From: Watersipora subatra
Taxonomy: Eukaryota > Bryozoa > Gymnolaemata > Cheilostomatida > Watersiporidae
NCBI RefSeq assembly: GCF_963576615.1
Contig: NC_088714.1
Span: 42,812,072 to 42,876,071 of the forward strand
Length of the DNA stretch: 64,000 bases
Direction of reading: 5' to 3'
Positions 18,901 to 55,084 of the stretch are shown here, in pieces; positions within the stretch are counted from its first letter, which is position 1; each line of letters starts with the position of its first letter. The notes below the pieces were generated by a model. It saw only the letters and a program-made list of their open reading frames with translations. It had not been told where the DNA came from and ran no database searches. Made by a program: the position numbers and the translations under genes.

Positions 18901-21900
18901 GCTGAGTAGTTGCTGAGCGCATTATACAACAGCGATTCAATTTAGGTTTTTAACACAGTTGGACGTTTTATTAGTGATCAGTTATGTTTCTGTTTTAATT
19001 TCTCTTAAATTTGATGTTTTATCCTAAACTGATATGAATCACTGCATTACCGAGTACACCATGCAGCTTGGATGTCAAACTGAATATTGCTAGTTGCAGA
19101 TCTTATGAGACTCCGTTTCATACGCTGAAAGATCTTTTGTAAGGCCTTTTTTTCGAACAGCAAGTGTCATAGACAAGACCTGCTCTGAAAATTAAAATAT
19201 TTTTTGCAATGTTTCTTAAAACTCCTAAACAAATCGTAGACTGATCGTGTCTATTTTAACTTCAATATACTACACTCTCATGGACAATGGCGGAGTTACC
19301 AACTCTCTACTACACGCTCATGGACAATGGCGGAGTTACCAACTCTCCACTACACGCTCATGGACAATGGCGGAGTTACCAACTCTCTACTACATGCTCA
19401 TGGACAATGGCAGAGTTCCAACTCTCTACTACACGCTCATGGACAATGGCAGAGTTCCAACTCTCTACTACATGCTCATGGACAATGGCGGAGTTACCAA
19501 CTCTCCACTACACGCTCATGGACAATGGCGGAGTTACCAACTCTCTACTACACGCTCATGGACAATGGCGGAGTTACCAACTCTCCACTACACGCTCATG
19601 GACAATGGCAGAGTTCCAACTCTCTACTACACGCTCATGGACAATGGCAGAGTTCCAACTCTCTACTACACGCTCATGGACAATGGCGGAGTTACCAACT
19701 CTCTACTACACGCTCATGGACAATGGCAGAGTTCCAACTCTCTACTACATTCTCATGGACAATGGCAGAGTTTCAACTCTCCACTACACGCTCATGGACA
19801 ATGGCGGAGTTACCAACTCTCTACTACACGCTCATGGACAATGGCAGAGTTAACAACTCTCTACTACATGCTCATGGACAATGGCGGAGTTACCAACTCT
19901 CCACTACACGCTCATGGACAATGGCAGAGTTCCAACTCTCTACTACACGCTCATGGACAATGGCAGAGTTCCAACTCTCCACTACACGCTCATGGACAAT
20001 GGCAGAGTTCCAACTCTCTACTACACGCTCATGGACAATGGCAGAGTTCCAACTCTCTACTACATGCTCATGGACAATGGCGGAGTTACCAACTCTCCAC
20101 TACACGCTCATGGACAATGGCAGAGTTCCAACTCTCTACTACACGCTCATGGACAATGGCAGAGTTCCAACTCTCCACTACACGCTCATGGACAATGGCG
20201 GAGTTACCAACTCTCTACTACACGCTCATGGACAATGGCGGAGTTAACAACTCTCTACTACATGCTCATGGACAATGGCAGAGTTCCAACTCTCCACTAC
20301 ACGCTCATGGACAATGGCAGAGTTATTAACTCTGCCATTGTTCAGATTCAGGAAAAGTTCAACGAGTAGCTCAAGGAGCTTCAGGTGGCTTTTATTGGTC
20401 TCACCCAACTTGTTCCGTGCAATGGCCAGAAAGATACTGTGGAAAATTCTAAGTAAGACTGGATGCCCTGATGAATTCATAAGAGTTATGAATTTATCAG
20501 GGCAAAAGTTGAAACAAAAGTTACTGCTGTCTGCGAACTACAATACTCGGAGAATAATGCAATAGTGGCACATACTGAGAAAGGCCTGCAGAAGTCATTT
20601 GATTGTTTCCATCGCACACACAATGTTCTCAGCCTCAAAGTGAATATAAAGAAGACAATTACTATACCGACTGTAACCAAGTAACCGTCTGAGCTCTTGT
20701 TGAGCCTCAATTTGCAGTGGAACGACTGGAGTTTAAGTTTTGTAAAGTCATTCAATTACCATGTAAGTTGCCTTTCGTAAAAAGCTAATTTAGATGTTGA
20801 GATTAAAAAATCTACAAGCAGCAAGTGCAGTCATTGGCCGTCTCAAATGACTGCAAATATCTTTCAAAACACAGATATTTTACCATATATAAAACTCAGG
20901 TTTACAAGGTAATCGTTTTCACTACATTTCCGTATGGATCAGAAATAGATACATTTATTTGCAGTCATAACCTGAAACCACTTGACAATTTGTATAGTAG
21001 ATGACTCGAAGACATTTTAGGAGTAACTCAGAGTGACAAATGGACAAGTATAAGTATAAGTATTGAGACGATTGTCAAGAATCAGTAACGCTGGACAGGT
21101 CATATGGTACATGTAGATGATATCAAACTTCCTAAGCAAGTCTTCTACTCAGAGCTAACAGATGGAAAGCGTAATCAGAGTGGTAGAAGAAAATGATACA
21201 ACGATACCATCAGGAGATTTCATTTTCTGTTTCGTAAGATTGGAGACCAAAGTAATTCGTGCCACTGGCAGAACTAAAGGGTCTCTATTTATGGGGGTAC
21301 TAAGCTGAGCTTGGAGAGGCTAGAAAATCCTGATTAATCTCTTCTACGGGCTCAACTTTGCTGGCTCACATGATTTGACAGGCAATAACCGTCTAAGAAG
21401 TCATGACAAAAACTCATTAATAACAAGCAGACACCATACTCTCATTGCAGGCGATTGCTGAGAGAAGGCCTATTCCTCATATATCGCATGTCATAAAAAA
21501 TGTCATATTATTTATTCTTGCAGTTTTATTCATTGGAACGTGTCACAAAGGATTAGCAGTTCAATCATAGAGACACAGTGAATATTTGTCACAGGGGTTC
21601 AGAGTTGAGACTGCATGGCTAGTGCTTTGTGGAGGGTTTTGCAATGTTCTCTGTAACTCTGCAATAATGTGACCGTTTTAGATTGGCACTATGCTGGGCT
21701 TCAGCTGCTGCATATTGCTGGGATGAATTGGTTCTAAAACTGTGTATGACAGAAATCGTTCAAAGCAGGTTTTTGGAGCGTAGATTATGTGTTGCTGTGA
21801 TTGTGTATTGCTCTGATTGCATGTTTCTGTGGTTTTGTGTTGCTATGATTGCGTGTTGGTAAGGTTGTGTGTTGCTGGGATTGTGTGTTGGTAAGATTGT

Positions 21901-24900
21901 GTTGGTAAGATTTTGTGTTGCTAGGGTTGCGTGTTGCTATGATTGCGTGTTGCTAGGATTCTGTGTTTCTAGGGTTGTGTGTTGCTAGGACTGTGTGCTG
22001 CTAGGGTTGTGTGTTGCTAGAATTGTGTGCTGGTAGGATAATGCGTTGCAAAGATTGTGTAGGGCTGAGATTGCCTGAACAGAAGTTGCGATAGTTTAAA
22101 ATGGAATAATGGAGAGGTTGCACTATATAAACTAGTATAGTCTTCTATCTCTCTCTAACTGTGTTGTAAGATCAGCCAGGTGGATGATGGCTGTAGCTGC
22201 TTTTGTTTAGCAACCAGATTCTGGAGAGATTCCTAATTTGGACAAAAAAGAGAAGAAAATGCAGGGTTATTTCAAGATATCTCGCCACTATAAATGGGCT
22301 CTTGGACAAATATTTGATGTGATGAAGTACAAAGCTGTAATAGTCATGGAAGGTGAGTTGATGCAATAAAAAACTCAGATAAGCAGGAATTTATCAAATA
22401 TACTCTGTAAGCATTTTGCTGTGGTACCCTAAGCATTACCTGTTAAGTAGCATTATCAGCTATAATAAGACTAGCAATTTGGAGATTTTGTGCTTGTATC
22501 CCAATTAGAGAGCAGTGCATGGCATAACCAACACTTTTCGATACATAGCTTTAATCAAACTAGCCCCTAGGCTTATATTTCAAGCAATGGTTTTGCCTTT
22601 TTCACTGTTGCATTTAGAGTTTTACAAAAAATTTTAGTTGCCATTGCCAGCTAGTTGATGACAGATTCATATGCTATGGATAACTTTATATTCTCAAGAA
22701 GTATTAGATAGTTTTTAAGGCATTTGCAGTGTTGTATTCGTTGTAATACTGGTTAATTGGAATTGCGCTTCATATTGATCTCAAGTAGAACACATTTCCC
22801 ATAAAGAACCTTTCGTTCACTCTCATTTATATTTCTATCATCATCTTAATGTTCTATGGAACTTCGCTGTTACAGCTGCCAATCTATTTCAGATGACTTA
22901 AACATCGCCTCTGACTTCTATGAATACTTTGCTGCCACCTACCCTTTGCTCAAGACTGATCCAACTCTATATTGCGTCTCGGCATGGAATGATAATGGGA
23001 AAGCTTCGCAAATAGAAGATAATCCGGGTAAGCTCATTCAGACTGTTGAATATTGGTTCATACTTGAAAGTTTCATACCAGGGTGTAGGTTAACAATAGA
23101 ACTTGTAGCCCTTTGTGTCATTGCTCATCATGTCAGTTTGGCTAACAATCACATTACCATCTGGGAGGAGGTCTGTACTCTCAATTGTTTGGATCCACAT
23201 TTGCCCATTTTCAGTTGTGGTAAATGTCTGTTTGCATAGTGGAAACTGTTTAAAACTAGTGGTTTGTAATGGTTTTTATGACGGTTTACGAATCTATAAG
23301 TCTGGTTCTATTCTCCATTGGTTGAAAAAAGATGTAGTATTCTCTGACTGTCTCTTCATCCTGATATTATGCTGCTTGATCAATCAGAAATTGGCTGGAT
23401 GCTTCAGCTTTATGTTTGAGAGACAGAACTGATTTGGGAGCAGCATATGTGTACAGTCGAAAGTATATGTTACAGAATTACTGTATAGATCTGATTTTTT
23501 CCCCGGCCTTGGATGGATGATGTTGGATACCCTTTGGGATGAGTACAGAGACGTTTGGCCTCGCGGGTAAAATAGTTTCTCTTGCATTCACTAAGTTGTA
23601 ATTAGTATCATGGAAAGCTATTATATTTATGTGGATTAGTAGTAGTTTAGTCATTAGCATTGCTATGTTGTATTCGTGCCATCATCCGTTTTAATGAGCT
23701 ACTTTATAAGAATACATTGTATTTTGTTTAAATCTTTTCAGAGCTCTAACGACATTATGAATAGTATATGTGAAATATTAAAACGAATTTGTTATACCAA
23801 ACTATCTAACGATTAAATATAGAAACCTAATTTATATAAAAAACTAGATTAATGAAGGAATAATTAGTAAAAAGGCATTTTTTATTGTTTATGTTAGAGT
23901 CAATGAACTGATGTGTAGGCAATGCACAAGCTTATTGGTTGAAGGATTGATATAAGAGCCTTCTACTCCTGCCTGGTGTAATTCACGCTTTTAACTAGAT
24001 TCAATTCAAATTAACTTTCTCTGTTTTATTATTTTACAACTTATTTTGCTTGTCTGTCTTATAATTTTGTTTGCAAAATGTAGAATGTTTATATAGGTTT
24101 GTATAGAGAGGTTTCAAGCGTCGGAAATTATTGCATAACTCGAGAAAATCATTTGCTCAAGATTTCTGTCATTTTAAAAGAATCACATTTACTTTAGAGG
24201 TGATCGTAAGTCGAGGTTTGACTGTTCTTGAGGTGATCATGAGTAGAGGTTTGACTGTTCTTGAGGTGATCGTAAGTAGAGGTTTGACTGTTCATTGAGG
24301 TGATCATAAGTAGAGGTTTTACTGTTCTTGAGGTGATCATAAGTAGAGGTTTTACTGTATGTTGAGGTGATCATAAGTAGAGGTTTGACTGTTCTTGAGG
24401 TGATCGTAAGTCGAGGTTTTACTGTTCTTGAGGTGATCGTAAGTAGAGGTTTGACTGTTCTTGAGGTGATCATAAGTAGAAGTTTTACTGTATATTGAGG
24501 TGATCATAAGTAGAGGTTTTACTGTATGTAGAGGTGATCATAAGTAGAGGTTATACTGTATGTTGAGGTGATCATAAGTAGAGGTTTTACTGTATGTAGA
24601 GGTGATCATAAGTAGAGGTTTTACTGTACATTGAGGTGATCATAAGTAGAGGTTTTATTGTATGTTGAGGGGATCATAAGTAGAGGTTTTACTGTATGTT
24701 GAGGTGATCATAAGTAGAGGTTTTACTGTATATAGAGGTGATCACAAGTAGAGGTTTTACTGTATGTTGAGGTGATCATAATTAGAGGTTTTACCGTATG
24801 TTGAGGCGATCATAAGTAGAGGTTTAACTGTTCTTGAGGTGATCATGAGTAGAGGTTTGATTGTATTTAGGTTAGATTAGAATCATGAGATAATTCTAGA

Positions 24901-27900
24901 TTGTAACCTCTGGCTCGCTATACAACTTTTACCACAATTGTTACCTTTATAAAAATAGGTTGCATTCGTATTCCTTTCATATACCCATGACTGAGTGAGT
25001 CTAGATGATTAGTGGCCGCTAAGACTATGCATGTCTATAAACATAGAATTCTTTTTATATGCTGTGTTCAACGATAACAGTTCGACGTGGTAATTGCGGG
25101 GTTATAGGAAAGTTTGCTCATGAATCCATTGATAAGCAGTTTTAGCTTTAATGGAACTCATCTGTTACACAACAGGCACAGTAGACACCCCTGCAACATG
25201 AATAATTCATTCCGAGTACGTTCAAGTTATAAGACTTTTATTCCTAATTGCCTAATTCATTCCAAGATTATTCCAAACTTGCATCTTGGGCCTTTCAAAT
25301 AGGAAAAAACTAAACTTCAGTTATGTAATTTAATGACTATACAGTAACTCTGGTATTATTGATTTTTATCAACAACTTTTTTCTTCTTTCTTACCACTTT
25401 CACTTGATTTAAGGTTCTTGATATGGTAATTGTATGTGAAGGGGAGCGCGCACCAACAATGTCAATTTAAATCTATTTTTTACGGACAGCAAGTCTACGG
25501 TGGAAAGTAAAATATAAAAAACTATTGTATGTGTCTAGAATAAAGCAAAACAAAATTATACATTTGCTATCGTAAGAGCGGTGTCTGTTCGTCCGTCCGT
25601 TTTTCCTAAGCCAGGGTTAAAGGTAAGGATAAGAGATTGATTTCAGTGAGACTCCCAACTCGTGACATTCAGGCTTCAATTTATACACCAATCAACTGCC
25701 TCCGAGTATTTCTGAATACTTAATTGTGCACATACTTATGTGCTTTATCAGCACACATGATGATCTCTCATGGCACACTAGACTGGCTGGGTACTAGTAC
25801 AATGTATATATAATAGAGATACCCCTATATGTCACTTTATCTCCCATGTGCGACAAGAGGGGAAACCATTTTAATGCTGTCCATTGGACCTTCGCTATTC
25901 ACATTGAATTTGAGAACTTGCATTACGTGGCGTTATATGGAGGTAATATTCTAATGTAATATGAAGCAAAGACTGCATGAATTCTTTAGGTTAAATGGAA
26001 TTTTGTTATAGGAGCGTATAGTGTATATGATTAGTGAGTCTAAACTTTCAATATGCTTTAGGACTTCGGGCTATGTTTCCAATTGTGCTGTATAGAAACT
26101 TGAAAATATCCAGTGTTAACAAAGCCTCTATACACCGTAATGAAGCCTGATCATTGCAAAAACTGCCATAAGCATTCTAGATTTGTGAAAGGTGCTCAAT
26201 TGGAGTCTGAACCTCGCATACGCATCTCATATGAGTTCTCCTCGCTCAACTTAGCGAATCTGCATGCACCTTTTGGTCTCAAAAAAGCTTGCTAAGGAAT
26301 CATCATTCTGTTCACTAATATACTTTTACCAAAGCATGCTAATTGGTCACTATTGAAAACATTTCTCAATCAGGTTCTGGGATGACTGGATCAGGCAGGA
26401 GGATCAGCGTCATGGCAGATCTTGTATCAGGCCGGAGATCTCCCGAACTCACACGTTTGGTGAAAAGGGTGTGAGCTTGTAAGTCTTGTAAGCCTCTCCT
26501 TGAGGTCATTTAAAGTCATGCATTGCATATTGTGTACGATACTTCTGCCAACTTATGTATGCAGGTCAAGGTTGTCTAGGCCAGTCTTAAAGCTTATATT
26601 TAGGTTCACAGTTTATCAACCTGTTGTGAATTTAATTGGCTAATCCTTTCTGCAGCAGGTCTAAGTTTAGCTAGAACTCACTGAAGTAACTGTTCCCTGC
26701 AAGCTGTCTATTCACACACATTTACATGTTATAGTTCATAAAATACCCAAGTTGTAGCCTTCAACAAGATTTGAATACACTATATTAGAACAATTTCAGC
26801 TCTGCCATTCCTAGTGTCATCTGCCAATAAGGCAATGCGAATGCTTTTCAATTGTAGAGGTCTCTTCTATAAAACTCATCTCAAATTCATTGTCTTGAAT
26901 GAGAAACCAGTGGAATGGACAAAAATGGATCTCTCATATCTAAAAAAGGTGAAGTCTTTTAGACACATGTCTCTCCATCTTGTGAAAATCTTTTCATTTT
27001 TAATGATTGTTAAATTCATACTGTGATGTCACTAGGGTGGCTTGACCCATAAATTTTATAAAGGCGTTTTTTTGTGTCAGTCTGGTCTGCAGTATTAACA
27101 TTAGCATCAGCTCTATCAAACCGTTATCATAGCATCAGATATCATGATTTAAAAAAAGTTGCTTTTTCTCCTGAAAATCTGTTTAATGAGCCTATACACG
27201 CAGGAGGTTGTGCGATTTATGATACTATTGGTTATATGATAAAGTTCACACGCAACTCTTACAGGAAAAGTATGATGAGAGTTATACAATAGCAGTCTAC
27301 AATTCCCCCATAATTCCCCTCAGTGATCTCAAGAAAGCAGCAGAGGAAAAAACTTTGAGCTCAGTGCGCATAACATACGACTCTAAAGTCACATTTAAAG
27401 CACTAGCGAAGCAACTCAATATCATGAATGATTTCAAGGTTGGTTCTTTTTGTTATTGCTGTTTTATAACATTTGAATAGTCAGGTGTATTAGATAGTGG
27501 TTGCTATTTCTACTCCTTACTCTAATCTGTATATACAGTATATATACACTGTACATAAAACCTTCAATTGAACGCTATGGCGCTCTATTTTTCAACCCTC
27601 CCTCTATAGTGACGCTCAAATGAAGTCTGGTGTGGTATTTTTTAAATAGCTCGTCAGAGTTTTGAGAAAATAAATTTAACCCTTTTATAGGCGAAGCGAA
27701 TGTTGCCTTTATTTTGCACACTCCTTTGGTTGGAGCGACATTAATCCTTTTAATGCAATAAATCTGCTATAACTTACCTCAAGCTTGTCGTAGATCTCTA
27801 AATTAATGTGTATTGGTAAGCTGAGAAACATCTCTACTTGTTGTTTGCAATTAACCTACGATGATCTTATAGATGATCTTACAGATGATCTTATAGATGA

Positions 27901-30076
27901 TCTTATAGATGATCTTATAGATGATCTTATAGATGATCTTACAGATGATCTTATAGATGATCTTACAGATGATCTTATAGATGATCTTATAGATGATCTT
28001 ATAGATGATCTTATAGATGATCTTATAGATGATCTTATAGATGATCTTATAGATGATCTTATAGATGATCTTATAGATGATCTTACAGATGATCTTATAG
28101 ATGATCTTATAGATGATCTTATAGATGATCTTATAGATGGTCTTATAGATGATCTTATAGATGATCTTATAGCCTGCGTTGCAATTTGTTGGAGCTTTAA
28201 ATTTTTATTGCATTTTAAATTTGAAGGCATATTTTGACTTCATAACTACATGTATATTGAACAATGTTGCATAAAAAGCTCATTTCACTCATTGATATGT
28301 TTGCTACAGTTTGCAACCAAAACTGGCTTTTTACATGCAATCGAAGAGGAGTTATGATAAACGCAAGGATGCTATCAAATAATATGCTATAAGTCTGCAA
28401 ATTTTTAAATTCTATAACGATAATATATCAAATGCTACAAATATATATTCAAGAACAAGGAGCATAAACGAACCATACTTATAGTACATGCAGAAACAAA
28501 AATTACGAATTTTGAAATGTAAATATTTGCATCGTTTGCTCGGCCGTTTGCATTCTGATTGTTGCTTTCGATGGAACGAACATCTTCTGGCTGTTCAATA
28601 TCTTCCGCAATGTCTTCTGACCTCAACTCTTCTTCTGCGCTGATGAATCAGTCGATATTAGCATCCAAACAATTGTTTAGCAGAGCAAAACTTTTACGCG
28701 TTTCATTTAGCACAAATAATAATACATCTTCAGCCGGAGGGGCGCTAAGCACAACTTTTAGCCTAAAACTAGTCGTACATATACCATCGTAAATGTAAAA
28801 CGTTTTTCACATACGTCGAAGTATCAAGACCTCATTGAACGAGGAACTACTATTAGCTTTATACAGTTACTAGCCGAATGCTCAGGTATTAAAAAACAGC
28901 GGCAAGTAATATAGTTGCGTGCCACTTGCCATTAGCCTAGCACATTGCCAATGGCTAATATGAGTAAGCTAGTGTCCCTATTGCTAAACTTAGTAGATAG
29001 AGCCGTAAGAGCAAGCTTTAGTGACGTTACGTAATGCAGAGTGCTATGGCAGATAAGGGCTCATATCGCCCAATGAATTCATTGCATCTTGCGGGGCTCC
29101 ATGGGTTAGTTTATCGCCTGGTGAATGGGAGGTTGCAAGATCAAATCTTCTGGAGATGAATTCTTCATTGCTAGATACTAATCAACAATAGCTAGAAAAA
29201 CCGAACGACGGACTGAGATTTATATATATATGTAGATTTCTATGGTGTTGCTTTAAAAGTTTTGATGAAAAAGCCGAAAAGCTTTGAAGCTACAAAACGG
29301 ACTTCGATACAAACAGAAACAACGAAAGAATGAATTGTTATTGATATAACCGAGTCATTATTAGTATGATTTTGTGGACACTTTTCTACTGATAACTTGC
29401 TATTACGGGTTCGTAAAGATTGAAGAATGTCAAAGTGATGGTCTATTGTTCAATCCTTCTCCTATAGCAGCATCCAAATAAAGGTGGCGTTCAAATAGAG
29501 GTTTTACGGTATGTACATCATATATCAATGTTTGTTCGCGGGTCTGTCTATGTGTCCAGTTATACAATAAAAAATTAGTTTATAGAGGGTTTGATCTTGG
29601 ACTCTCCAGGTCAGAAGATCAGCGATCTAACTCACTACACTACAATTGGTTGACTGATTGTAGTGATGAATGATTGTGGTGACATTCATTGCATTGGTTA
29701 AAATACTCGTTAAAATAAAATAAGCGCTTGGGGTTATTATCTAGTACGTTTTATCATTATGCAAATTGGCTATTGTATTAGCAAAGATTTAGACTACTAT
29801 TTTACAAGGTAAGTTACTTATCTAGTACCGGTATATTGATAATCAGTTGCGTTAGATAGTGGTTGCTATTTCTCCTCTTTCCTCTAATATATTGATAATC
29901 AGGTCTATTAGAAACTGGTGAAGTAATGAGTGCGCTCACAACCAGTTGGACATATTTTTCAGGATGGAATTCCACGCACTGCATACAGGGGAATATTACC
30001 CATCGTATACAACGGACTTAGGGTCTACCTGACCCCAGAGTCAGAGTGGAAGAAATATGATCCTTCTTGGACGTAA
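12962..30076 (+). CDS. MGAT1: Alpha-1,3-mannosyl-glycoprotein 2-beta-N-acetylglucosaminyltransferase (GnT-I)
   Basis: GnT-I transfers GlcNAc from UDP-GlcNAc to Man5GlcNAc2 in the medial Golgi, opening the route to hybrid and complex N-glycans. Coding exons: 12962-13075, 14937-15084, 15466-15625, 16683-16794, 22211-22352, 22893-23027, 23476-23566, 26374-26478, 26858-26948, 27265-27438, 29963-30076 (TAA). All introns are GT-AG and all phases agree, giving 461 residues (human about 445). Type II topology: short tail, membrane anchor about residues 8-27, stem, then catalytic domain from about 115. The metal-binding EDD is residues 225-227, split by intron 5; WDDW is 303-306, with D304 matching the rabbit catalytic Asp291. 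Cysteines 126, 157, 253 and 318 match the two known disulfides. The C-terminus is KYDPSWT, as in the family. The exon 2 donor (GTAAGA at 15085) was chosen over GTATAT at 15059 because only it keeps frame with exon 3; the stem sequence there is the least certain part. Vertebrate MGAT1 has a single coding exon. Confidence 0.95.
13299..14796. repeat. 16-bp minisatellite in MGAT1 intron 1
   Basis: About 93 copies of TACATGTACATCCTTT or TACATGTACATCCTTC fill most of intron 1. Each unit holds the palindrome TACATGTA. The unit has no stop codon in any plus frame, and 16 is not a multiple of three, so all three plus frames stay open for about 500 codons. These frames are artefacts. Confidence 0.97.
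15777..16003. repeat. 20-bp minisatellite in MGAT1 intron 3
   Basis: About 11 copies of GCTCTGGTATCTGACAGATA, with a shorter variant (GGTATTCGACAGATTGCT) and one unit carrying an insertion near 15825. Confidence 0.93.
16806..18642. mobile_element. Foldback-like element with a minisatellite core, MGAT1 intron 4
   Basis: The outer arms are inverted copies. The left arm (about 16806-16955) contains CAGGATGTTTCAAGATTAAA; the right arm (about 18490-18642) contains its reverse complement in diverged form (TTTAATCTTAAAACATCCTG). Matching blocks also occur around TTTTATCCGAAAG on the left and CTTTCTGATAAAA on the right. Inside the arms, a block of about 85 bp starting AAGCCGTTCAGATT occurs as a direct repeat on both sides of the core (about 16961 and 18281), and GAACATAATAGTTGATATCA occurs twice on the right. 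The core is a 40-bp minisatellite. No transposase was seen. Elements with tandem-repeat cores are known in molluscs; assignment to a named family is not possible here. Confidence 0.7.
17010..18224. repeat. 40-bp minisatellite inside the foldback element
   Basis: About 30 units of 40 bp containing CCAACAGAATATAGCCACAT and CTGCTGCAACTTGAACAGA. Variant units in which AACTTGAACAGA is replaced by TTCAGCTAAGGGA sit at both edges of the array, while the centre is nearly uniform. This is the pattern expected of unequal exchange, with old units left at the margins. The long open frames on both strands are artefacts of the stop-free 40-bp unit. Confidence 0.95.
19266..20328. repeat. 39/40-bp minisatellite in MGAT1 intron 4
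   Basis: About 27 units built on CTACACGCTCATGGACAATG. Two main types alternate: one with GCGGAGTTACCAACTCT (40 bp) and one with GCAGAGTTCCAACTCT (39 bp). The last unit runs straight into a reverse transcriptase relic, so the array may have grown from sequence next to, or inside, that LINE. Confidence 0.95.
20340..21290 (+). pseudogene. LINE reverse transcriptase relic
   Basis: Pieces typical of the reverse transcriptase and post-RT region of metazoan LINEs are visible in changing frames: [18 protein letters not shown] near 20440, then (after loss of the middle palm region) [20 protein letters not shown] near 20560, where NNAIV stands in the place of the catalytic YADD-type motif. After that comes a typical post-RT stretch with [20 protein letters not shown] around 21090-21150. 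Stops and frame changes make it non-functional. Same strand as MGAT1, in intron 4, directly after the 39/40-bp array. Clade (RTE, jockey or CR1-like) is undetermined. Confidence 0.75.
21780..22070. repeat. Degenerate GT-rich minisatellite in MGAT1 intron 4
   Basis: Imperfect units of about 16-17 bp with the theme GTGTTGCTAGGATTGT, ending about 140 bp before MGAT1 exon 5. Far more diverged than the other arrays in the gene. Confidence 0.75.
24194..24865. repeat. 33-34-bp minisatellite in MGAT1 intron 7
   Basis: About 20 units containing GAGGTGATCATAAGTAGAGG and TTTTACTGTATGTT, with a second type ending TTTGACTGTTCTT concentrated at the left side. The stretch GAGGTTTTACTGTA resembles the terminal sequence of the TIR element seen at 29515 and 42145 (GAGGTTTTACGGTA). 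Confidence 0.93.
25565..25805 (-). mobile_element. tRNA-related SINE copy in MGAT1 intron 7
   Basis: Member of a family also found at 37275-37515 and 58025-58245. The shared order on the plus strand is a GTCCGT-rich start, a tRNA-like block (CAACTCGTGACATTCAG ... ACACCAATCAACTGCC), then GTGCTTTATCAGCACAC and a GGGTACTAGTA end. Read on the minus strand, the tRNA-like block holds A-box-like TTGGTGTA and B-box-like GAGTTGGGA. Confidence 0.65.
27858..28172. repeat. 12-bp minisatellite in MGAT1 intron 10
   Basis: About 26 copies of GATGATCTTATA, with occasional GATGATCTTACA. It is highly uniform, so probably young. Both strands stay open because 12 is a multiple of three. The translated repeats (Asp-Asp-Leu-Ile and Ser-Ser-Ile-Arg) are artefacts. 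Confidence 0.97.
28508..28765 (-). pseudogene. Decayed ORF inside TIR transposon R3
   Basis: On the minus strand about 85 codons read with a single internal TGA. Visible pieces are [31 protein letters not shown], then after the stop [20 protein letters not shown] and [18 protein letters not shown]. The acidic, low-order sequence would suit a terminal region of a transposase, and its position inside a TIR element supports that. I cannot assign a superfamily: no DDE catalytic block is present. Confidence 0.45.
29090..29200 (+). mobile_element. tRNA-like SINE head
   Basis: GGGTTAGTTTATCGCCTGGT resembles an A box, and GGTTGCAAGATCAAATCTT, 30 bp on, sits where a B box would be, as in tRNA-derived SINEs. 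No proper tRNA fold is apparent, so it is not called a tRNA gene. Confidence 0.4.
29540..29655 (-). mobile_element. tRNA-like SINE head, opposite strand
   Basis: Read on the minus strand, AACCAATTGTAGTGTAGTGA is followed by a B-box-like GAGAGTCCAAGATCAAACC. The plus-strand flank has the GTCTGTCTATGTGTCC start that recurs at other SINE copies in the window. Confidence 0.4.
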
Positions 30077-44862: not shown

Positions 44863-47800
44863 ATGGCCAAGTGGGGTGAAGGTGATCCAAGGTGGATTGT
44901 GGAGGAGCGTGCAGATGCTACAAATGTAAACAATTGGCATTGGTTAGTGTTTTTGAGACTTATTCATTTACACAAGCCTTGCCATAGCTTTTGTACAAAT
45001 GTTCTCAATGTTACACATTATCTTTGATAAACATGCTCGTCGAATTAGACTTGTGAACGGGTGACTTTCAAAATAGACAACAAGTACAGCTTGCATGTTT
45101 TTGGTTTACAGAGACTCTAGTCAATTCCCAGTCATAAAATGTCACCAGTCGTTGTAAACCTATGGTAGGTGCATGCTTGTGACCACGAAGCCTACTTTTT
45201 TCATCACGAGGGAAATTTAAATGAATTTTGAGAAATGTATTATTGTTTGTGGGTTCAGGTTCTTGATCGATATATCATATCTTCCTGGTATCAGATCAAT
45301 TTGTAGCATCTTGTTGATTGTGTTCAATATATAGCTTCTTGTTTACATGTCAACTTGTCAGGACTGAGAAGAATGCTACCAGCTGGTCTAAAGACAGACT
45401 CAAGTCCCTACTTGTAGGTCTAACTATCAATAACGCGTGTAAGTAAATTAATTATTAAATTTGTTTAGATGGGTGGCAACAAGATCACAGCGGCTTGACA
45501 TTTTCTGTTCATTTCGTATAGTATAGAGTGGCTTTATTGGATACAGCTTTTTAGAACATCTAGTTGTATCATACCCTGATCAAGAAGTCTTAAAACCGTT
45601 CTAATGCGCAGTCGCTGAACTGTCTTTTCATTTTGTGTGGGTGTATTTACCTGCAAATGAGATTTTTGAAATGTAATCATTTTAAATTATAGCAATTTAA
45701 AGCATGTCACTACATGTGTTCTAGCATTTGGTGACGATCAGAAATGTCGTAGGAGGTGACTTACGTGTATATTTCCTTAATATGGCCACGGTCTTGCATA
45801 GAGCACAAGTGATATTAAGAACAGGTTGAGACACTTCTTCTTTATAGCATGTCTTCTTTCTATCACATGTCTTCACATGTTCCTTTTAGGTGGTAATGTT
45901 GAGCTCCAAGACTTCGTAACTTTAGAAGGAGAAGCATCAGCGAATAATCGGAAAAGCAAGTTAATCTTTTTCTATGAATGGGATATAAAGATCAATTGGA
46001 AGGGTAGGTTAAAAAAATTGTTCAAGTTGAATTTGTGCTAGAGGCTTTTTTATACTATTTCTTAGAAATTGCAGCATTTAAATATGTTGTCACCATCATC
46101 GATGTACTGATGAATGGAGAACCAATCAAAAGGAAGCAAGTACATGTAGTTATAATATTTGTTAGAAGATGAGTTAGCTACTGGTTATGAACATATTGAA
46201 ATTCTTCCAAGGAATCATCATTCAGTTATTACATAAGAATTAGTGTGAAAGTAAGGATGTTAATTGGGCCGAGTTTCTTTTCAGGCAATCTGAACACAGA
46301 AGATATGACAGAAGTTAAGGGAACAATATCCATTCCTAATTTGAGCGATGAACAAGATATCGTAGATATTGAGGTTGGTTTCTTTGTAGCTATATTTGGT
46401 TACAAATGCTTACATTATAGGTAATCTGTGCGGTCAGACTTCCACTACATACTAAGTTAATTTTGTTTCCATGCTGGCTTTACATGTTAAAACTGATGTG
46501 TATTAGAGCAAATATATTTATAAGAATTCACTGCAATTCCCTTTTTTCTATGGTCCAAACGATCTACAATACCTCATTGTTGACTACTAACATGAAACAT
46601 ACATTGCATAGAACTTTCTAAAAAAAACTAAATGTAAAAGTGGTAATCGGTCCAAGTGGCTTTTGTTGCTACTTCACTTTAGAGACTGAAGTAGATGCGA
46701 TAACAAAGACTATATGAACTGTAAGCTAGCTTAAATTATAACTGTCACGTACACCTTTTATCGTATTTGCTAGGCAAATCGGACACGCTGATTCCGATTT
46801 TGTACTCAAAATAAAGATTGGTCACTAACCTTCAAAGTCATGAAGGCTTTTTTAAAGCGTTTCAATATCGGTTTCGAAAACAACACAATCGGCATAACAA
46901 GCTTCGTCCATAAATACGTGACGTAGCCTAGCTTTTTAGGACCGAAAGTTAAGGATGTTTAGTACGATTAAGAATAATAGAGATGGGTGTCTTAAAACCC
47001 ATTATTATCTAATTCAGTTTGTAAAATAATCTCAGTCTTTTATGAAAGGTAGATAAACTATTTAAAATTGCTCGTAGCTTGTTACATGATGTTTAATAGG
47101 CTGAACGTCGAGAAAAATGAGCTAAAAAAACTGCGATTTTATCACAAGCTTGCGTTGTTATCGTGCTTTTTTGAGCTCATTTTTAAATATGCAATGTTAA
47201 ATAGCTTATCTACCTTTCAGAAAATACTATGATTATTTTGAAGGCTGAATTTAGATAATAATGGGGTTTAAGACACCCATCTCTATCATTCCAAATCGGA
47301 CTGGACATCATTAACTTGTGATGTCACTAGTGGACCAATCTTTATTTTGAGTACAAAATCGCAATCAGCGTGTCCGATTTACTTAGAAAATACTATAAAA
47401 GTTCTACGTGACAGTTATGGTTTAACTTTCAAATGTTGAATTTGACTGTTTGGTTGGCTGACATGCAAGTACATGTAAATGTGTACGGATATGTTACAGT
47501 TATTCTGAAAATATTGAAAAAAGTAAACATGATGAAGTTGAAATGCAGAAATAACTGTCAATAAAATTCAATTTATCTGATTTGAAATACATCACTCGGC
47601 TTGAAATATGCTGTTACCACATGTACATGTATATAGATTTGGTCTCGATACCAAATCGGCTTACAACCAATCACTCGGAACCAAACGAGGTACATCGATG
47701 ACTGACTTATGACTACCTATAGTGCAGACCTGCCTGCCATCTGCACACGTTCAAGTGTAAGATGATATTGTATCCAAAACGTCTCGTGACTGCATATATT

Positions 47801-50800
47801 AGTAGTGTTTTATGTTGCAAATAAAGAAATAGAATATAAAATAGGAATGGAATACTTACATTTCATGTTAAATTATTCACTGTGGTTTACACTAAGGTTT
47901 TCACTTCTTTTATTAACCAATTCTTACCACCAAATATTAACTGTTAGGATTTACCAAACGTTTAATCATGTTCCAGTAATAAGATAGTTGGCTAGCAAAA
48001 GAGTTAATTCTAAAAGAAAAACAATAAGAACTGTGATACTATTTGTAAAAGAAGTCGGCTGCTTTCAATAGCAATACTATTTGGTACAGCTATTAGGAAA
48101 CAGGCTTGCGTGCATGTGCTCAGATGTACTCATTTCATCTATTTCATGTCAGCTAATATCAGATTCTTCATAACCAGAAACGAAATATCTAGCATATATG
48201 TTGTATTGTAGTGTGGGTGTATGTAGCTACAGCAAATATCTGTAGATATTTGCTGTAGCTACATACACCCACACTACTATACAACACCTAATGATTACGA
48301 ATAGTTTAATCAACTTAAGTTGAACTCGATCGTGCAAAGACCATGATGCCATTGGGGGAATTTTCAATAACCTTATTGAAGTATAATGAGTATATTACTA
48401 ATTTAATATGTCATATGGCTCCTCAGCAGTGAGCCATATGACATATTAGATAAATAATTTCTGTCTCAAAAATATGTGGGAGCAGGAATAATGCTTTTGC
48501 AGTTATAGCTAGCTACATTGGCCAAATATGATACATGTCAAAGATGAAAATCAAACCAGTACAAAAATAGTTTTTGTTTATAGAATCAAACTAAAAAACT
48601 TGGGTTTCAACAGACCTAATTATCTAAATGCCTGATGAATATTGTTCATAAAACATTTATATTTGTTTGATGAGTTTCGTATACAGTTTCAATTTATACT
48701 ATTTGCTAGAAGTAAGGATGGCTATCCATATACACAGGGTTGTTTGTGTGAAGCCTTCTCATTGACATCCATATGCACATGATTGTTCATTCGAAGCCTT
48801 TTCGCTGGCATCCATATACGCATGTTTGTTCGTGTGAAGCGTTCTCGTTGTCATCCATATACACGTGGTTGTTTGTGTGAAACCTTCTCGTTGTCATCCA
48901 TATACACATGGTTGTTCATGTGAAGCCTTCTCGTTGTCATCCATATGCACATGGTTGTTCATGTGAAGCCTTCTCGTTGTCATCTATATACACATGGTTG
49001 TTCATGTGAAGCCTTCTCGTTGTCATCCATATACACATGGTTGTTCATGTGAAGCCTTCTCGTTGTCATCTATATACACATGGTTGTTTGTGTGAAGCCT
49101 GCTCATTGACATTTGAATGGATCACATATGAGTTTAGCTCGCTCTGGAAATCAATAAACAAAATGACAATTTCGTTCATCGAGAATTGACTGTTTTAGTC
49201 TATCATTTATGTACGTTTCTTCTGCTGTAGCTACGCATATACTATTCATATCCCAAGTCTTTAAGAACTCTCATCTCGGACAAATGTTTGCCGATATGAT
49301 GTTTGATTAGGCTGTACTTTCACCTATAGTGGTTAATACAGATTTGCTACATTTTATAACCAGAACTACCTAATTCCAATTAGTCTGACTTTTTCGAGCA
49401 CGCGGCATTATTAGTTCTTTCCTGTAGGCACATATTTGGCAATAGTAAAGTGAATGTCAAGCATATGTGCAATATGTATGTATTCAGACAGATGTAATAT
49501 AGCTCATGTCACTAGTTATCCAATAAGCACAGACCGTCTCTATATGTTGTACTTAACGGATGACTTATGCGTGATGTTATTGGCATGTTGTGTTATCTAA
49601 CCATCAGGTAAATGTAGCATTGACCAGTCAGGTGAATGGAGGAGACATCCTTAAAGAGATGATACGCACAAAAGGGGCCGATTTGATACGAGAAAAGCTA
49701 GCTGATTATATTGACTCATTGAAAATTGGTGAGATCTTTTTTGCTGCAGTTCTGTTAAAGTTCTGTATACATTTATGTTATGTCGGGTGTATTCATGTTA
49801 TGTTTGTTTTTATCTTTAGATGTTGTACAGTCAGACCTTGGCATGCGAAGTCAATTCATTCCAATATTTCCTTTGTGCGCCACAATGATAATATGTTGTA
49901 GCAAATATTCATATGATATTACATTGCATTTTGTTCAATGCATTCCTGTGCTTAAAAAATTAATAAAAGAACACCTGAAGTAATGACTAACATCATTAAG
50001 CCAAACAAATTATTTAGGACTAAGTAAAGAATAATTGTAAAAACCTAAATCATATGTAAAAACTAAAATTCTGAAGTCGTAATCAGTAAAGTATTTATTG
50101 CCAGTTTACGTGAGAGACACGAGAATAACGGTAATCTTGGTGGCACTTAGTAATAAAAACACTCCTAACCAACTCTAACGTACACTTGATATGAAATACA
50201 CAGCGGAATGCACTCCAACCTCGCTGCATGCAGTTTAAATTAATTAAATATCTGTGCGATTCATTTTTTCAAGTTTTGTAATTTTCACTAGTTTTTCATA
50301 CCTTTGTATCCAAAGCCATAATATATTGAGAAACTTGGTGTGTGTATTATGTGGGAATTGCTTTGTATGTCGAAACAAATATTAGCTCAAATTTTACACT
50401 TGGTATCGAAAACTTTATATGTAGAAGTGATTGTAAGGCAGTTTTTGTCGTGTTCCAGTCGTGCTATACTCTTGTCACATTATACCTTCCTCACGTTATT
50501 CCTTAGTCACGTTATACCTCAGTCACGTTATACCTCAGTCACGTTATACCTCAGTCACGTTATACCTCAGTCACGTTATACCTCAGTCACGTTATACCTT
50601 AGTCACGTTATACCTTAGTCACGTTATACCTTAGTCACGTTATACCTCAGTCACGTTACACCTCAGTCACGTTATACCTCAGTCACGTTATACCTCAGTC
50701 ACGTTATACCTCAGTCACGTTATACCTCAGTCACGTTATACCTCAGTCACGTTATACCTCAGTCACGTTATACCTCAGTCACGTTATACCTTTGTCACGT

Positions 50801-53800
50801 TATACCTTAGTCACGTTATACTGGTAAAGAGGTCTTGCGATGTGTATTGCAGGTATGTGATTTCTGACAAAGTCTGCTCAAGTGATGTGTAGTGTAGTAG
50901 ACCCATGTCATTTATATATTGTGACATCATTCAGTCTGGCCATTGCGTTTCATGTCTAATATGTCCCGATTATTTCATGTTTATCGTATTAGAATTCAGT
51001 CAAGGAATGATTTTACCCACTGATCCACAAGCATCCACCAACAGCAAATCTGCTCCTACCAGTTCAGCCAAGAGTATCACTGAAGAATTCAAGCAAGCGT
51101 CTATAGCTCCCGCCAGCACCAACACTTCCAAACTCAACCAGCCAGTTATCGGCGTCAAGCTAGACACAAAGAAAATTAGCATGAAAGAGGAGTTCATGTG
51201 CGGGAAGGAAGAGTTGTATAGGGCTCTGACTGAAAAAAATGTAAGTAAAATCCATTCTCAGGCTATCAGTTAGTATATATATATTATATATATGCTAACA
51301 TATATATAATATATATATATATATACAGTTAATATATATATATATTAACTGTTTCCGTCGCTCTCTCCCTCCTCACTCTCTTTACACTTGCAAGAATCTA
51401 ATGAAGATGTTTTACTAGCAAAGTATGCGATGTTTTTATTTTCTGTTCATGGAATGTGTATTACAATAACGGCTTATGTTGTACCTGATGTAAAATCTAT
51501 TAAGTTCATTTAGTGTTACTGCGCAACTTGCAATTCTGACCTGGTATTAGTAGAGTGGACCCTCATCATATGATTTTAATTCGTTCCTTTGTTGGCATCA
51601 CAAGGTGAAATTTTCGTATAGAGTGGTATAGAAACCTTTAGGAAATATCCAATGCAAACACCCCTTGGTAAAAATCGTCAAATTTTTATATGCGTACTGT
51701 GCATATTAAAAATTAGTAACAAAATAATATCTTAATCTTAGTAACTATAGTTACTTACAGTAACTTTAGTGTATTTACCCTACAGGATGAATTTATTCGC
51801 GGAGTTAAATTTTGCAAAAATTTCCATTTCATGCATATTCGCGGATTAATTTATTCGCGGCTGAAAACTGTCACTCTCTATGAAGAGTTAACTCTATTGC
51901 ATCTAGCAATAGAGTTAATCCTACGCATGCGCACATTGCGTGTTTCGGTTTCTATTTAGCTTACAACTACGGGTCAATCATGCTAAGCTATAAATTTTTT
52001 GCTGCGTTCAGAGGTTTTCACGAATATTCATAGATTTGGAGGCCTTTGATGAACCAACAACTTGCAGTAAGTAATGAGTTTTTTTTCAAAACCATTTACT
52101 AAATTAGTTGAATTTTACTTTAGTTTTTTGGTAAAATGCAATATTTATTTTTTCTATTCCTACCGCTTTGTTTTTTGTTATAGTGTGAGAGAGAGAATTT
52201 TCATCATACACGGAGGCATAATGACTGCAAGGGTGGTAGATGTCATTTTTAGAAGATCACCAATTATTCAGAGAGGTCTTGAAATTGAGGTAGAAGTGAC
52301 CGCAGCTGCTAACGAGAAGAATATATCTGTTTTAAAAAAGGAACAAAAACGCCTTTACCAGCACAAATTTTGGGTCAACCGGCAGAACTTTGCAATAGTA
52401 GGCCACGAGGAGAGTTCTGATGATAACTTCTTTACCAGCCATGTAGTAGCGAGAGAATCGCCTTTAACATCTACCCAAGACAGTGACAGCGATATAGAGC
52501 TGCTATTACCAAAATAACTAGCCAGAGAGCACCATTACCCGCTAGTATTCACTTATCAAGAGTACCAGTTCATTTTATTGCTAGACAACCGCCATATGGA
52601 CTAAACTGTTTATATTTACTCCATTCATCGTTTGTAAAATATTGTTTGTATTTGAAATATTTTATTTGTACACTCAAGTTTGTAATAAATTATAATATAT
52701 CTATACATGAAATGAAATATATAATATAATCATGTTTGCTGCAGCGATATCAAGGAGTTGTTGTTGATGAAGGGGTCTAGGCTGACTGGTTGCTTCTCTG
52801 CCAATATTCCTGCCTTGATGAATATTACTAATTGTCTCTAGTTTTCGTAATCGGAATAGGTTATATTTCATTCTCAATCTGCAGTAAACACAAAAAAGAA
52901 AAAAATATTAATAAGTGTTAAGGAAGTACAAAAACAATAGCTGAAATAATTAATGAAAGTGATAAGTTTTTAAACAAAAGAATTAACTAACGCAGTTAAT
53001 TATGGAAAAACGTATCTGCACTGCAAATCAAATACATACCATAATGTCCAGATCAGAATCATTATCGTCCTCAACTACGATATTAGAGATTGATGGAGTT
53101 AATTTCGATGTCAAAAGACTATAGGAGAGATTTTTGACATGCCGAATAACTTGTGAAAACCTTGAATAATTTTGTAAAGAAGTTCGATGCAATGGCAATG
53201 AAACTCGAAGCCCCGGCGACGATTTTAAAGAAGTTTTGGAACTCGGCTATGATTAGTACTTCTGCTAGCGGCTATTTTTGCGATGATGCCATTCTGCATA
53301 TCTTGTGACAACCTTGAATAATTTTGTAAATAAATGTGATGCATTAGCAATGAGGTTAACTCAAAGCCCCAGCAATGATTTTAAAAAGGTTTTGGAACTC
53401 AACTACGTTTAGTATGTATGCCTAGCGGCTAGTTTTTAATTTTGAGGCAGTAGTTATTCTCCCTTGTGATTAAAAATAGAACTAATTTTTCGCGGAGTTG
53501 ACTGTTCTCGAAATCGCGAATTTTTGTAATCATCGAATATTTTCATCCTGTAGGTTAGTAGTTATGATCTGCAATAAAATGTAACTCTACAGTGTAATAT
53601 GTGCAATACATACTGTTGGCAGTTCTTACTTTTGAGGAAGATGTATAAAATAAACTTTGAATTTAATTTTAAATGATTTTAGCTTACTAAACACATACTT
53701 AAAGCTAAGTTCTAGTATGTATTTTTAATTATTTTACTTAACTTCAACTTTTTCACCGTTAAAATTTTATCACTTATCTGTTTCTGGTTTCATTTTCACA

Positions 53801-55084
53801 ATAACTAATAACGAATAGCGTCAAACTGAGTGAGATTGAGCATCGTATTTTTTTCATTTGTTCTTTGAAGGATTTCGGCAAATAGCATATCGGCACATTT
53901 GTTATTCTGACGTAATCAGCACCCCGACTGCCAAATTTGAATTTCAAGTAAAATCTTTGTTGATATCATATGGCGAATAATATTTCGTATGGAGAGAGCA
54001 AAAAATCATCGCCTTCTACATTGTAGGGCAAAAAATCATATAACAGGGTCATCGCAATCCGAGGGTGCACTGTACAGGTTTATAATTGTTTATACTTGAC
54101 TCGCCATAATGCCAATTTTTGAATTTCTAAATGCAGAATTATTGCATAGTTGAGAAATATGTTGATTATGTAGCTAGTGTGGTTGGGCCTGGAGTTTAGT
54201 AATAGGTTAAGAATCTGCATCATATGCTACTTTAATTACAAGACATTCATCCATAATTCTCTTACCTTCACTCAAGGATGGATGAAGCTGGTTATATCAT
54301 ATAGCAAACAGCTCTTTAGATCGATAAAACTTTCCTTGCCTTTCAGAAACTGAGCTAGGTGCAATTGTGCAAGTCGAGTAATGACGCCCTATAAATGCTG
54401 TGTTGTAGATGGTGCAGGCTTTCACAAGAGCCCCGGTTGGCAAGTGGGAGCTCTGTGTTGGTGGTCGATTTATCCTCTTTGATGGCCTCATCTCTGGTGA
54501 ATTTCAGCAGCTCGTAAGTTAACTAATATACATGTACATATGTATATAAAGGTGCATGTATAGTTTATCAGATATGAACATCCACAGGTAGAGAAATCCT
54601 CCCTGGCATCCAATGAGTTCCAGCACATAAAACAACTTGTTGTACAAATGCATATTTAATTTAGCTTAACTAGTGCGATTTTTTGTGTATATTTCCAAGT
54701 TTTTTTTTAGGTACGTTGCATATAAAAACAAAACTATATCTGCTAAATATAGTTTTACATTTCATTTCTCAGTAAACTAACTTATTTGTGATGTGAGGTG
54801 CTAGAAGAAACACATTGGCTGTTCAGGACTGTACTTGTAGTAGTCTCGTTACTCTTTAGGTTCCACATGAAACGATAGTTCAGCGATGGAGGATGAAGAG
54901 TTGGCCGAGTGGACATCATTCAGTGGTTACCATCAAGCTCTCCCAATCATCCAACTCTACCACATTAGTTCTTTCACAAACCGGTGTACCGGCTAGCGAG
55001 ACAGAAAGTACAAAGCAAGGCTGGCGAGGCTACTACTGGAACAGTATTCGTCAGACATTTGGATTTGGAGTTAACATATTTTGA
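44863..55084 (+). CDS. AHSA1: Activator of Hsp90 ATPase, Aha1
   Basis: Cytosolic co-chaperone that binds Hsp90 and stimulates its ATPase. Coding exons: 44863-44942, 45362-45438, 45890-46003, 46286-46373, 49608-49728, 50993-51240, 54409-54513, 54860-55084 (TGA). The model has about 352 codons (human 338). The N-terminus is MAKWGEGDPRWIVEERADAT followed by NVNNWHW (residues 21-27), the Aha1 signature that tunes Hsp90 action; intron 1 splits its last Trp codon. Exon 3 has ASANNRKSKLIFFYEWDIK and exon 4 ISIPNLSDEQ, both in the Aha1 N-terminal domain. A linker rich in Ser, Thr and Ala (exon 6) leads to the C-terminal START-like domain, with QAFTRAP, SGEFQQL, QRWRMKSWPSGHHSV and a QTFGFGVNIF end. 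All introns are GT-AG and phases agree, except that exon 4 is one base short: AAGGAACA at 46318-46325 where an extra G would join TEVK to GTISIPNL. All other exons look intact, so an assembly error or a recent allele is likelier than a dead gene. Confidence 0.93.
46741..47415. mobile_element. Snapback MITE, Tc1/mariner-like, AHSA1 intron 4
   Basis: TA at 46739-46740 and 47416-47417 flank inverted ends: ACTGTCACGTACACCTTTTA on the left, and TAAAAGTTCTACGTGACAGT on the right. Pairing continues inwards through GGCAAATCGGACACGCTGAT versus ATCAGCGTGTCCGATTT, the GATGGGTGTCTTAAAACCC / GGGGTTTAAGACACCCATC pair, and on to a centre near CACAAGCTTGCG (about 47151). The whole 675 bp is thus one long imperfect hairpin. 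There is no ORF. TA duplication and foldback form fit Tc1/mariner-type MITEs. Confidence 0.85.
48199..48286. repeat. 88-bp near-perfect palindrome, AHSA1 intron 4
   Basis: Arms of 43 bp (48199-48241 and 48244-48286) pair with one mismatch around a 2-bp centre (GT). The arms contain GTGTGGGTGTATGTAGCTAC and GTAGCTACATACACCCACAC. Confidence 0.95.
48404..48448. repeat. Perfect 18-bp hairpin, AHSA1 intron 4
   Basis: TAATATGTCATATGGCTC pairs with GAGCCATATGACATATTA across a 9-base loop (CTCAGCAGT). It lies only 118 bp after the 88-bp palindrome. Confidence 0.93.
48728..49108. repeat. 43-bp minisatellite, AHSA1 intron 4
   Basis: About nine units built on CATCCATATACACATGGTTG followed by TTCATGTGAAGCCTTCTCG and TTGT, with the later units closest to one another. 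Confidence 0.93.
50455..50822. repeat. 16-bp minisatellite, AHSA1 intron 5
   Basis: About 23 copies of CTCAGTCACGTTATAC, with a CTTAGTCACGTTATAC variant. Each unit holds a CACGT core. Confidence 0.96.
51272..51352. repeat. AT-microsatellite cruciform, AHSA1 intron 6
   Basis: (TA)n runs broken by GCTAACA and by two inverted blocks, CAGTTAATATATATA and TATATATATTAACTG. It begins about 30 bp after the exon 6 donor. Confidence 0.85.
51545..51680 (-). mobile_element. Interspersed repeat R5, inverted fragment
   Basis: The reverse complement reads GGTTTCTATACCACTCTA, then TTGTGATGCCAACAAAGGAA and ATGATGAGGGTCCACTCTA, matching 40685-40800 in order. Confidence 0.6.
52221..52517 (+). CDS. Small unidentified gene nested in the TIR element
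   Basis: An ORF of 98 codons starts MTARVVDVIFRRSPIIQ and ends DSDSDIELLLPK. The first half is mixed, with an EIEVEVTAAANEKN stretch. The middle is basic and aromatic (KKEQKRLYQHKFWVNRQNF); the last third is acidic and Ser-rich (GHEESSDDNF, STQDSDSD). No signal peptide, membrane segment or known domain is recognised. A likely 5' intron precedes it: donor GTAAGT at 52067 and acceptor TTGTTATAG ending 52183, 37 bp before the ATG. An AATAAA follows the stop at 52684. It lies wholly between the inverted ends of the TIR element, and on the same strand as AHSA1, whose intron 6 holds it. It may be an element-encoded accessory protein or a captured host gene. Function unknown. Confidence 0.55.
   Translation: MTARVVDVIFRRSPIIQRGLEIEVEVTAAANEKNISVLKKEQKRLYQHKFWVNRQNFAIVGHEESSDDNFFTSHVVARESPLTSTQDSDSDIELLLPK
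52684..52689 (+). terminator. AATAAA of the nested gene
   Basis: AATAAA lies 167 bp after the nested ORF's stop, within the TIR element. Premature use by AHSA1 transcripts is possible, since it lies in AHSA1 intron 6 on the sense strand. Confidence 0.4.
53145..53440. repeat. ~150-bp direct duplication inside the TIR element
   Basis: ACCTTGAATAATTTTGTAAA occurs at about 53159 and 53312, followed in both copies by GCAATG or GCAATGAG, AAGCCCC, GATTTTAAA and GTTTTGGAACTC, ending near CTAGCGGCTA. The copies differ at about one base in eight. Confidence 0.85.
53565..54085 (+). mobile_element. Interspersed repeat R5, copy next to the TIR element
   Basis: Collinear with 38105-38170 at its start and with 40070-40670 further on (TTAGCTTACTAAACACATAC, CTGCCAAATTTGAATTT, AGGGTGCACTGTAC at the end). 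It begins within 10 bp of the TIR element's right end. Confidence 0.6.

Follow-up and report, generated by a model that had tools for sequence, protein, structure and literature searches.

The stretch of DNA analysed here (the window) comprises 64,000 nucleotides of the genome of Watersipora subatra (contig NC_088714.1). It carries exon pieces of a GNT-I (MGAT1-like) gene (PF03071) at 16663-27477, and many long arrays of minisatellite repeats with a basic unit of 12-40 bp (318-1165, 13297-14794, 17022-18227, 19268-20333, 24197-24866, 27860-28172, and 50474-50821), which yield long, meaningless open frames. Further downstream, two exon-like frames matched Pfam domains: Aha1_N at 45802-46038 (E 2.5e-11) and AHSA1 at 54860-55081 (E 8.6e-15). 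A transposable element of 1778 bp with paired inverted ends (51778-53555; Table 1) sits between these two frames. Its position would put it within an intron of an AHSA1-like gene (45802-55081) that runs on the plus strand, as the element does.

Table 1. Features of the element, in window positions.
Feature	Position	Strand	Remarks
TA target-site duplication, left	51776..51777	.	TA on both sides in 33/38 two-ended copies
Whole non-autonomous element	51778..53555	+	1778 bp; 37-row family consensus, 1808 bp
Left terminal inverted repeat, CCCTACAGGATGAA...	51778..51799	+	695 exact left-type ends genome-wide; reversed-pattern control, 0
TATAAA, putative promoter	51989..51994	+	Consensus position 212
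Possible coding end of exon 1, ATGAACCAACAACTTGCA	52049..52066	+	Candidate exon; in-frame join to the HIRAN frame only in L052 of five D-type copies tried
Possible intron, GTAAGT...ATAG	52067..52183	+	Donor GT in 34/37 and acceptor AG in 36/37 aligned copies
Putative deletion-junction region	52184..52200	+	About 95 bp (N-terminal half of the HIRAN stretch) absent relative to D-type copies
98-codon ORF, predicted C-terminal remnant of a HIRAN-like protein	52221..52517	+	
AATAAA, possible polyadenylation signal	52684..52689	+	Consensus position 906
Unit of about 155 bp, present twice, about 80% alike	53135..53440	+	In the 3' third of the element
Right terminal inverted repeat	53534..53555	-	Final base T, against G in the family
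TA target-site duplication, right	53556..53557	.	TA on both sides in 33/38 two-ended copies

An earlier note on this DNA had delimited an element of 1777 bp (51778..53554) flanked by a duplicated TTA. Comparison with sibling copies corrects both the extent and the duplication. Among 38 copies with two ends, the window copy included, TA was found on both sides in 33 and a 3-bp duplication in none; this makes TA the duplication and CCCTACAGG...CCTGTAGGG the ends of the family, the terminal sequence beginning one base further out than first read. The window copy seems to be flanked by TTA because its terminal G has changed to T: its last base is T, while 36 of the 37 other two-ended copies have G. 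Matches of 4 bp, found in six of the 38 copies, are what a TATA-like target would give, and none reached 5 bp or more; position +3 was T in 22 copies and position -3 was A in 16. The inverted arms of the window element are 24 nt long and 88% complementary, TA counted in. In P0003, the frame of the element's ORF continues, after TA, into an element left end; this looks like one family copy inserted into another, in support of the TA duplication.

Tc1/mariner elements duplicate TA, and PIF/Harbinger elements a 3-bp TWA. Judged by its TA duplication and inverted ends, the family would most likely belong to the Tc1/mariner superfamily. The alternative of a PIF/Harbinger-type MITE with a TTA/TAA duplication is suggested by the window copy alone, with its TTA on both sides; as the 3-bp TWA test failed in all 38 copies, TA was so frequent, and the terminal base of the window copy deviates from the family, we give this reading almost no weight. 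MITE traits are nonetheless present, as the elements are non-autonomous, with inverted ends and many copies of uniform length; 1.8 kb exceeds the typical length of a MITE.

A search of the genome's own DNA (784 Mb, 239 contigs) with the element, in which 40 of 2574 first-look candidates were scored, gave at least 42 matches, of which 35, including the window copy, cover the query almost from end to end with an identity of at least 87%. Exact copies of the left end TACCCTACAGGATGAAT number 318 + 377 = 695 in the genome, and those of the right-type end TACCCTACAGGATGAAA 613 + 569 = 1182; the reversed-pattern control gave 0 for each. The right-type end is able to occur at both sides of one element. 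Contig C1, up to 52.4 Mb, contains 45 neighbouring inward-facing pairs of ends within 12 kb of each other; six had a right-type end at both sides, and 39 were mixed left/right pairs, 30 of them spaced about 1586-1842 bp, seven longer, and two shorter. The pairing of the ends seen in the window copy thus recurs in its siblings, and the spacing of mixed pairs clusters near 1.8 kb; unpaired ends in other copies, which had been named in advance as evidence against the element, were not what we observed. Three pairs on the same stretch lie 610-644 bp apart. The one of these that was read, L142 (C1:4982640-4983310), is a derivative of about 0.65 kb with the right-type pattern at both ends and without the ORF.

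Copies were read in two samples. The first consisted of 39 copies with flanks, the top-scoring ones in the DNA search; its substitution counts exclude three of 40 rows (L045-L047), and the tree of the 37 rows (36 fetched copies and that of the window) has a star-like shape, its end branches making up 94% of the total length. For the second, we took the first 84 left ends in the list and kept 80 (79 on C1 and one on C2); of the four omitted, three were already in the first sample and one lies inside L101. Of these 80, 64 match the family sequence over at least 700 bp, most having been read over only about 0.75-0.85 kb. The tree of the second sample was built from 33 of its first 40 rows, omitting seven with insertions, deletions, or truncation. 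The first sample seems to favour copies without indels; an A-run in the ORF has a length of 6 in 36 of the 40 rows of the first sample versus 11 of 33 rows of the second. Because of this bias (16 of the 37 aligned rows of the first sample have an intact ORF, against a far lower share of the second), intactness of the ORF was counted on the second sample.

The gene-like parts of the window copy stand in the order proposed earlier, with a donor (exon end 52066), an acceptor (exon start 52184), the 98-codon ORF (52221-52517), and AATAAA (52684). The description of a non-autonomous inverted-repeat element with gene-like parts and no transposase was likewise borne out: the 37-row consensus holds no transposase-like frame, and its only open frames of at least 60 codons are three, of 145 (including the 98-codon ORF), 70, and 74 codons. 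Splicing of the putative intron (52067-52183) is plausible. The frame of the window ORF is also open upstream across this supposed intron (147 aa from 52074), and a frame of at least 140 codons runs through it in seven of 40 first-sample rows. On the minus strand lies a possible convergent spliced mini-gene (52840-53139; consensus 1369-1060; MASSSQK...DSDLDIM / IENETTYSDYEN, 49 codons), whose CAG acceptor and polypyrimidine tract are of good quality. Its frame is broken in the window copy and intact in 15 of 37 aligned copies, and a search for relatives of this putative gene found none.

To the earlier note, the ORF looked like a complete gene whose family was unknown. When the window ORF or close copies were used as queries, Pfam, PDB, and homology searches gave weak, chance-like matches and nine fragments that we read as probable copies of the same element; the window ORF alone matched no Pfam family above the cut-off, and its AlphaFold2 model (mean pLDDT 55) was unusable. 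A different picture emerged from the copies that we call D-type. Five of the 80 sampled copies (L052, L093, L099, L105, and L117) have about 95 bp extra directly after the splice acceptor. Eleven D-type copies, six of them chosen by protein search, were aligned, and their majority sequence, read in the ORF frame, adds NNLHDPFAVKLINADCATVGHLPREISRVSSFFIIHGG ahead of the window's first Met. Of the five D-type copies tried, L052 alone has exon 1 in frame with the HIRAN frame; exon 2 begins with a short GA run of variable length.

When four D-type pieces were tried against Pfam, HIRAN (PF08797) was the sole family matched, with E-values of 2.4e-4 to 9.3e-3, under the gathering cut-off of 24.7 bits. 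Five further D-type frames were taken from genome matches: L130 passes the cut-off with 26.7 bits, L131 (24.5) and L135 (19.7) fall below it, and L132 and L134 gave no Pfam HIRAN match. A homology search with the D-type pieces (7992 candidates scored) returned at least 53 proteins at E ≤ 0.01, namely the nine element fragments mentioned above and a further 44 proteins, among which six have a precomputed HIRAN domain; 28 of the 44 were aligned, and 11 of these match HIRAN at E ≤ 0.001. One D-type piece matched five PDB entries, all of the HLTF HIRAN domain (E 0.15-0.2), and the profile of the 28 relatives matched HLTF HIRAN structures at E about 2e-4. Using hhalign, the element protein aligned with its HIRAN-like relatives over 85 columns with a probability of 99.4 and an E-value of 1e-21, these relatives having been found with the same element pieces. 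No relative was found in viral contigs.

The family of the ORF can thus be named, as L130 exceeds the Pfam cut-off and the hhalign match is at E 1e-21. By this homology, the window's 98-codon ORF corresponds to the C-terminal part of a protein with a HIRAN domain (PF08797), the N-terminal half being missing, probably through a deletion. What had seemed complete is a remnant, lacking about 95 bp with the N-terminal half that sibling copies keep, and the 95-bp segment in D-type copies, together with the HIRAN homology, rules out a complete gene of a new family. Because the homology runs across the joint, the segment was probably lost from the window type and not gained by the D type. The window ORF starts after the VGHLPREISR core, so that the whole HIRAN domain is not present in the window copy, and the profile positions before 28 (the first part of the domain) are unmatched even in D-type copies.

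One could also regard the ORF as a chance open frame in an AT-rich MITE, which never was a gene. Its length by itself is weak evidence, because an ORF of 98 codons or more turned up in 39 of 1000 sequences made by dinucleotide shuffling of the family consensus, and the neutral evolution of the copies described below fits such an origin too. Against it stand the G+C content by codon position (54/35/40%), which looks coding-like, and the HIRAN homology across the deletion joint in D-type copies, data that already contradict it; we regard a chance frame as very improbable.

As a remnant of a HIRAN gene, the ORF is mostly broken among its siblings. The 98-codon frame (homologous start, stop after 98 codons) is intact in only six of the 80 second-sample copies (L054, L092, L098, L099, L105, and L129), and no start was found in eight. 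Three copies are open to the end of the read stretch, L048 for 89 codons (possibly intact) and L109 and L114 past codon 98; the three already-fetched ends left out of this sample (L018, L020, and L043) would contribute two more, L018 and L043. Among the 33 rows, 12 form a clade (support 100/100) in which every frame is broken, eight of the 12 entering the same shifted frame after the A-run; this subfamily multiplied without the ORF. The earlier note had named random disruption of the ORF in other copies as a finding that would count against its reading, and these counts and this clade show that other copies do disrupt it. In each of the two main subfamilies of the first sample, the majority sequence keeps the ORF intact, and a role of the ORF in master copies during part of the expansion is possible.

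The measurement of selection among copies that had been called for gave a pattern that fits neutrality. Relative to the 37-row consensus, the ORF has 333 nonsynonymous, 16 stop, and 114 synonymous changes, with a neutral expectation of 321.5, 17.2, and 124.3, taken from the substitution spectrum of the rest of the element. Changes common to at least three first-sample rows number 29 nonsynonymous and seven synonymous (neutral ratio 2.9), and the HIRAN part of the 11 D-type copies has 41 and 13, respectively (neutral ratio about 2.8). None of the 11 deletions in the ORF in the first sample is a multiple of three. Deletions per kb and copy in that sample are 1.0 in the ORF versus 2.1-2.7 elsewhere, a lower rate that may be due to how the sample was picked. 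The two main subfamilies, A and B, differ at 48 positions, of which two lie in the ORF, both being amino-acid changes. Judging from these patterns, the HIRAN gene looks dispensable to the element.

These data also bear on a rival reading, in which the HIRAN gene belongs to the transposon itself as an accessory gene, useful for transposition and selected in rare masters, with most copies being dead offspring. Neutral evolution of dead offspring is expected even under selection on masters, and the lower number of deletions in the ORF in the first sample speaks for such a gene. The D-type frame is also kept at many loci: an 83-residue HIRAN piece gave at least 150 matches scored among 1645 candidates, about 118 of which start at residue 5 or earlier, many without a stop. 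HIRAN-like proteins of 68-206 aa (the length limits of the search) occur on many other contigs, some in clusters of 25-35 member sequences. However, the shared changes, which come nearest to a signal from inner branches, are not conservative in the first sample; both subfamily differences within the ORF alter amino acids; the D-type copies show no visible constraint; the clade of 12 expanded with broken frames; and the 0.65-kb derivative L142 does without the ORF. We therefore hold such an accessory function to be unlikely. As a separate observation, P0015, P0034, and P0037 are small HIRAN-like proteins that represent 25, 34, and 35 member sequences, respectively, each set coming from one or two contigs, and their genes are possibly multi-copy in other genomes.

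No autonomous partner with a transposase was found in the copies read, which cover the 80 sampled left ends, six of the seven long end pairs, and the 37-row consensus. The long pairs were candidates for an autonomous form, and those read (all but the 2476-bp one; L136-L141) proved to be ordinary copies split by insertions. By eye, the inserted open frames look LTR retrotransposon-like in L136 and L137, and Tc1 transposase-like in L139. The Tc1-like element (L139, 738-1940) has ends CAGTGGTGTGC..., is flanked by TA, and is inserted into a family copy; with ends unlike CCCTACAGG, it does not suggest itself as a partner. When the whole genome was searched in six frames for Pfam HIRAN (87 candidates scored), there was no match at E ≤ 0.001, which speaks against the HIRAN assignment. 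No host donor gene emerged from this search, and the protein matches may come from element or host loci.

We consider it quite probable that the family is TA-specific (Tc1/mariner-like) and non-autonomous, about 1.8 kb long, and carries a decayed HIRAN gene as passenger cargo. Most likely, a Tc1/mariner-type transposase encoded elsewhere would move the element in trans. An early form would have contained the coding part of a small protein with a HIRAN domain, taken from a host gene or from a parent transposon, together with a promoter, a first exon, and an intron. The gene would then have been carried along as cargo and have decayed by deletion, frameshifts, and point changes. A single deletion of about 95 bp may have removed the N-terminal half of the HIRAN stretch, upon which an internal Met became the start of the 98-codon ORF, and subfamilies would then have been amplified with the open frame kept or lost. 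The window copy would be one old insertion, which by its position lies in an intron of the AHSA1-like gene.

The family shows a gene for a DNA-end-binding domain that was spread over a genome by elements with more than 1000 ends and then decayed, with deletion and frameshift steps that can be read by comparing sibling copies. It also illustrates how single copies can mislead: one terminal mutation altered the apparent superfamily, and one deletion masked the protein family. The HIRAN domain of HLTF binds 3' DNA ends. A wider proposal, which we put forward as doubtful, is that TA-targeting DNA transposons of invertebrates repeatedly carry small HIRAN proteins as accessory cargo. These proteins might protect or present the 3' ends made during excision, and the window family would be a late, decaying branch. 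If it is true that HIRAN genes ride related elements in other animals, this would suggest an unrecognised transposon accessory gene. Among the papers listed in literature searches on HIRAN and transposons, none dealt with a HIRAN gene carried by a transposon, which is no proof of absence, and those listed for the element's terminal sequence included nothing relevant.

Compared with known systems, the family resembles non-autonomous Tc1/mariner (IS630) elements in its TA duplication, short inverted ends, AT-rich flanks, and many transposase-less copies. It is unlike them in its length of 1.8 kb with a gene remnant, and in having no transposase in what was read; its ends, CCCTACAGG, also differ from the CAGTGGTGTGC ends of the Tc1-like insertion in L139. 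With small HIRAN (PF08797) proteins and HLTF, the element protein shares the VGHLPREISR core and a RRSPI-QGGLEI stretch, which align over 85 columns, whereas D-type copies are unmatched before profile position 28 and the window copy also lacks the VGHLPREISR core. Finally, a paper on the Pack-TYPE and Pack-Mariner elements of plants (PMC8903248) describes these as non-autonomous TIR elements with coding DNA between their ends. As far as that description goes, the window family is similar in being a non-autonomous TIR element that carries coding DNA, and differs in that one gene piece is common to most sampled copies of a large family, in an animal and not in a plant.
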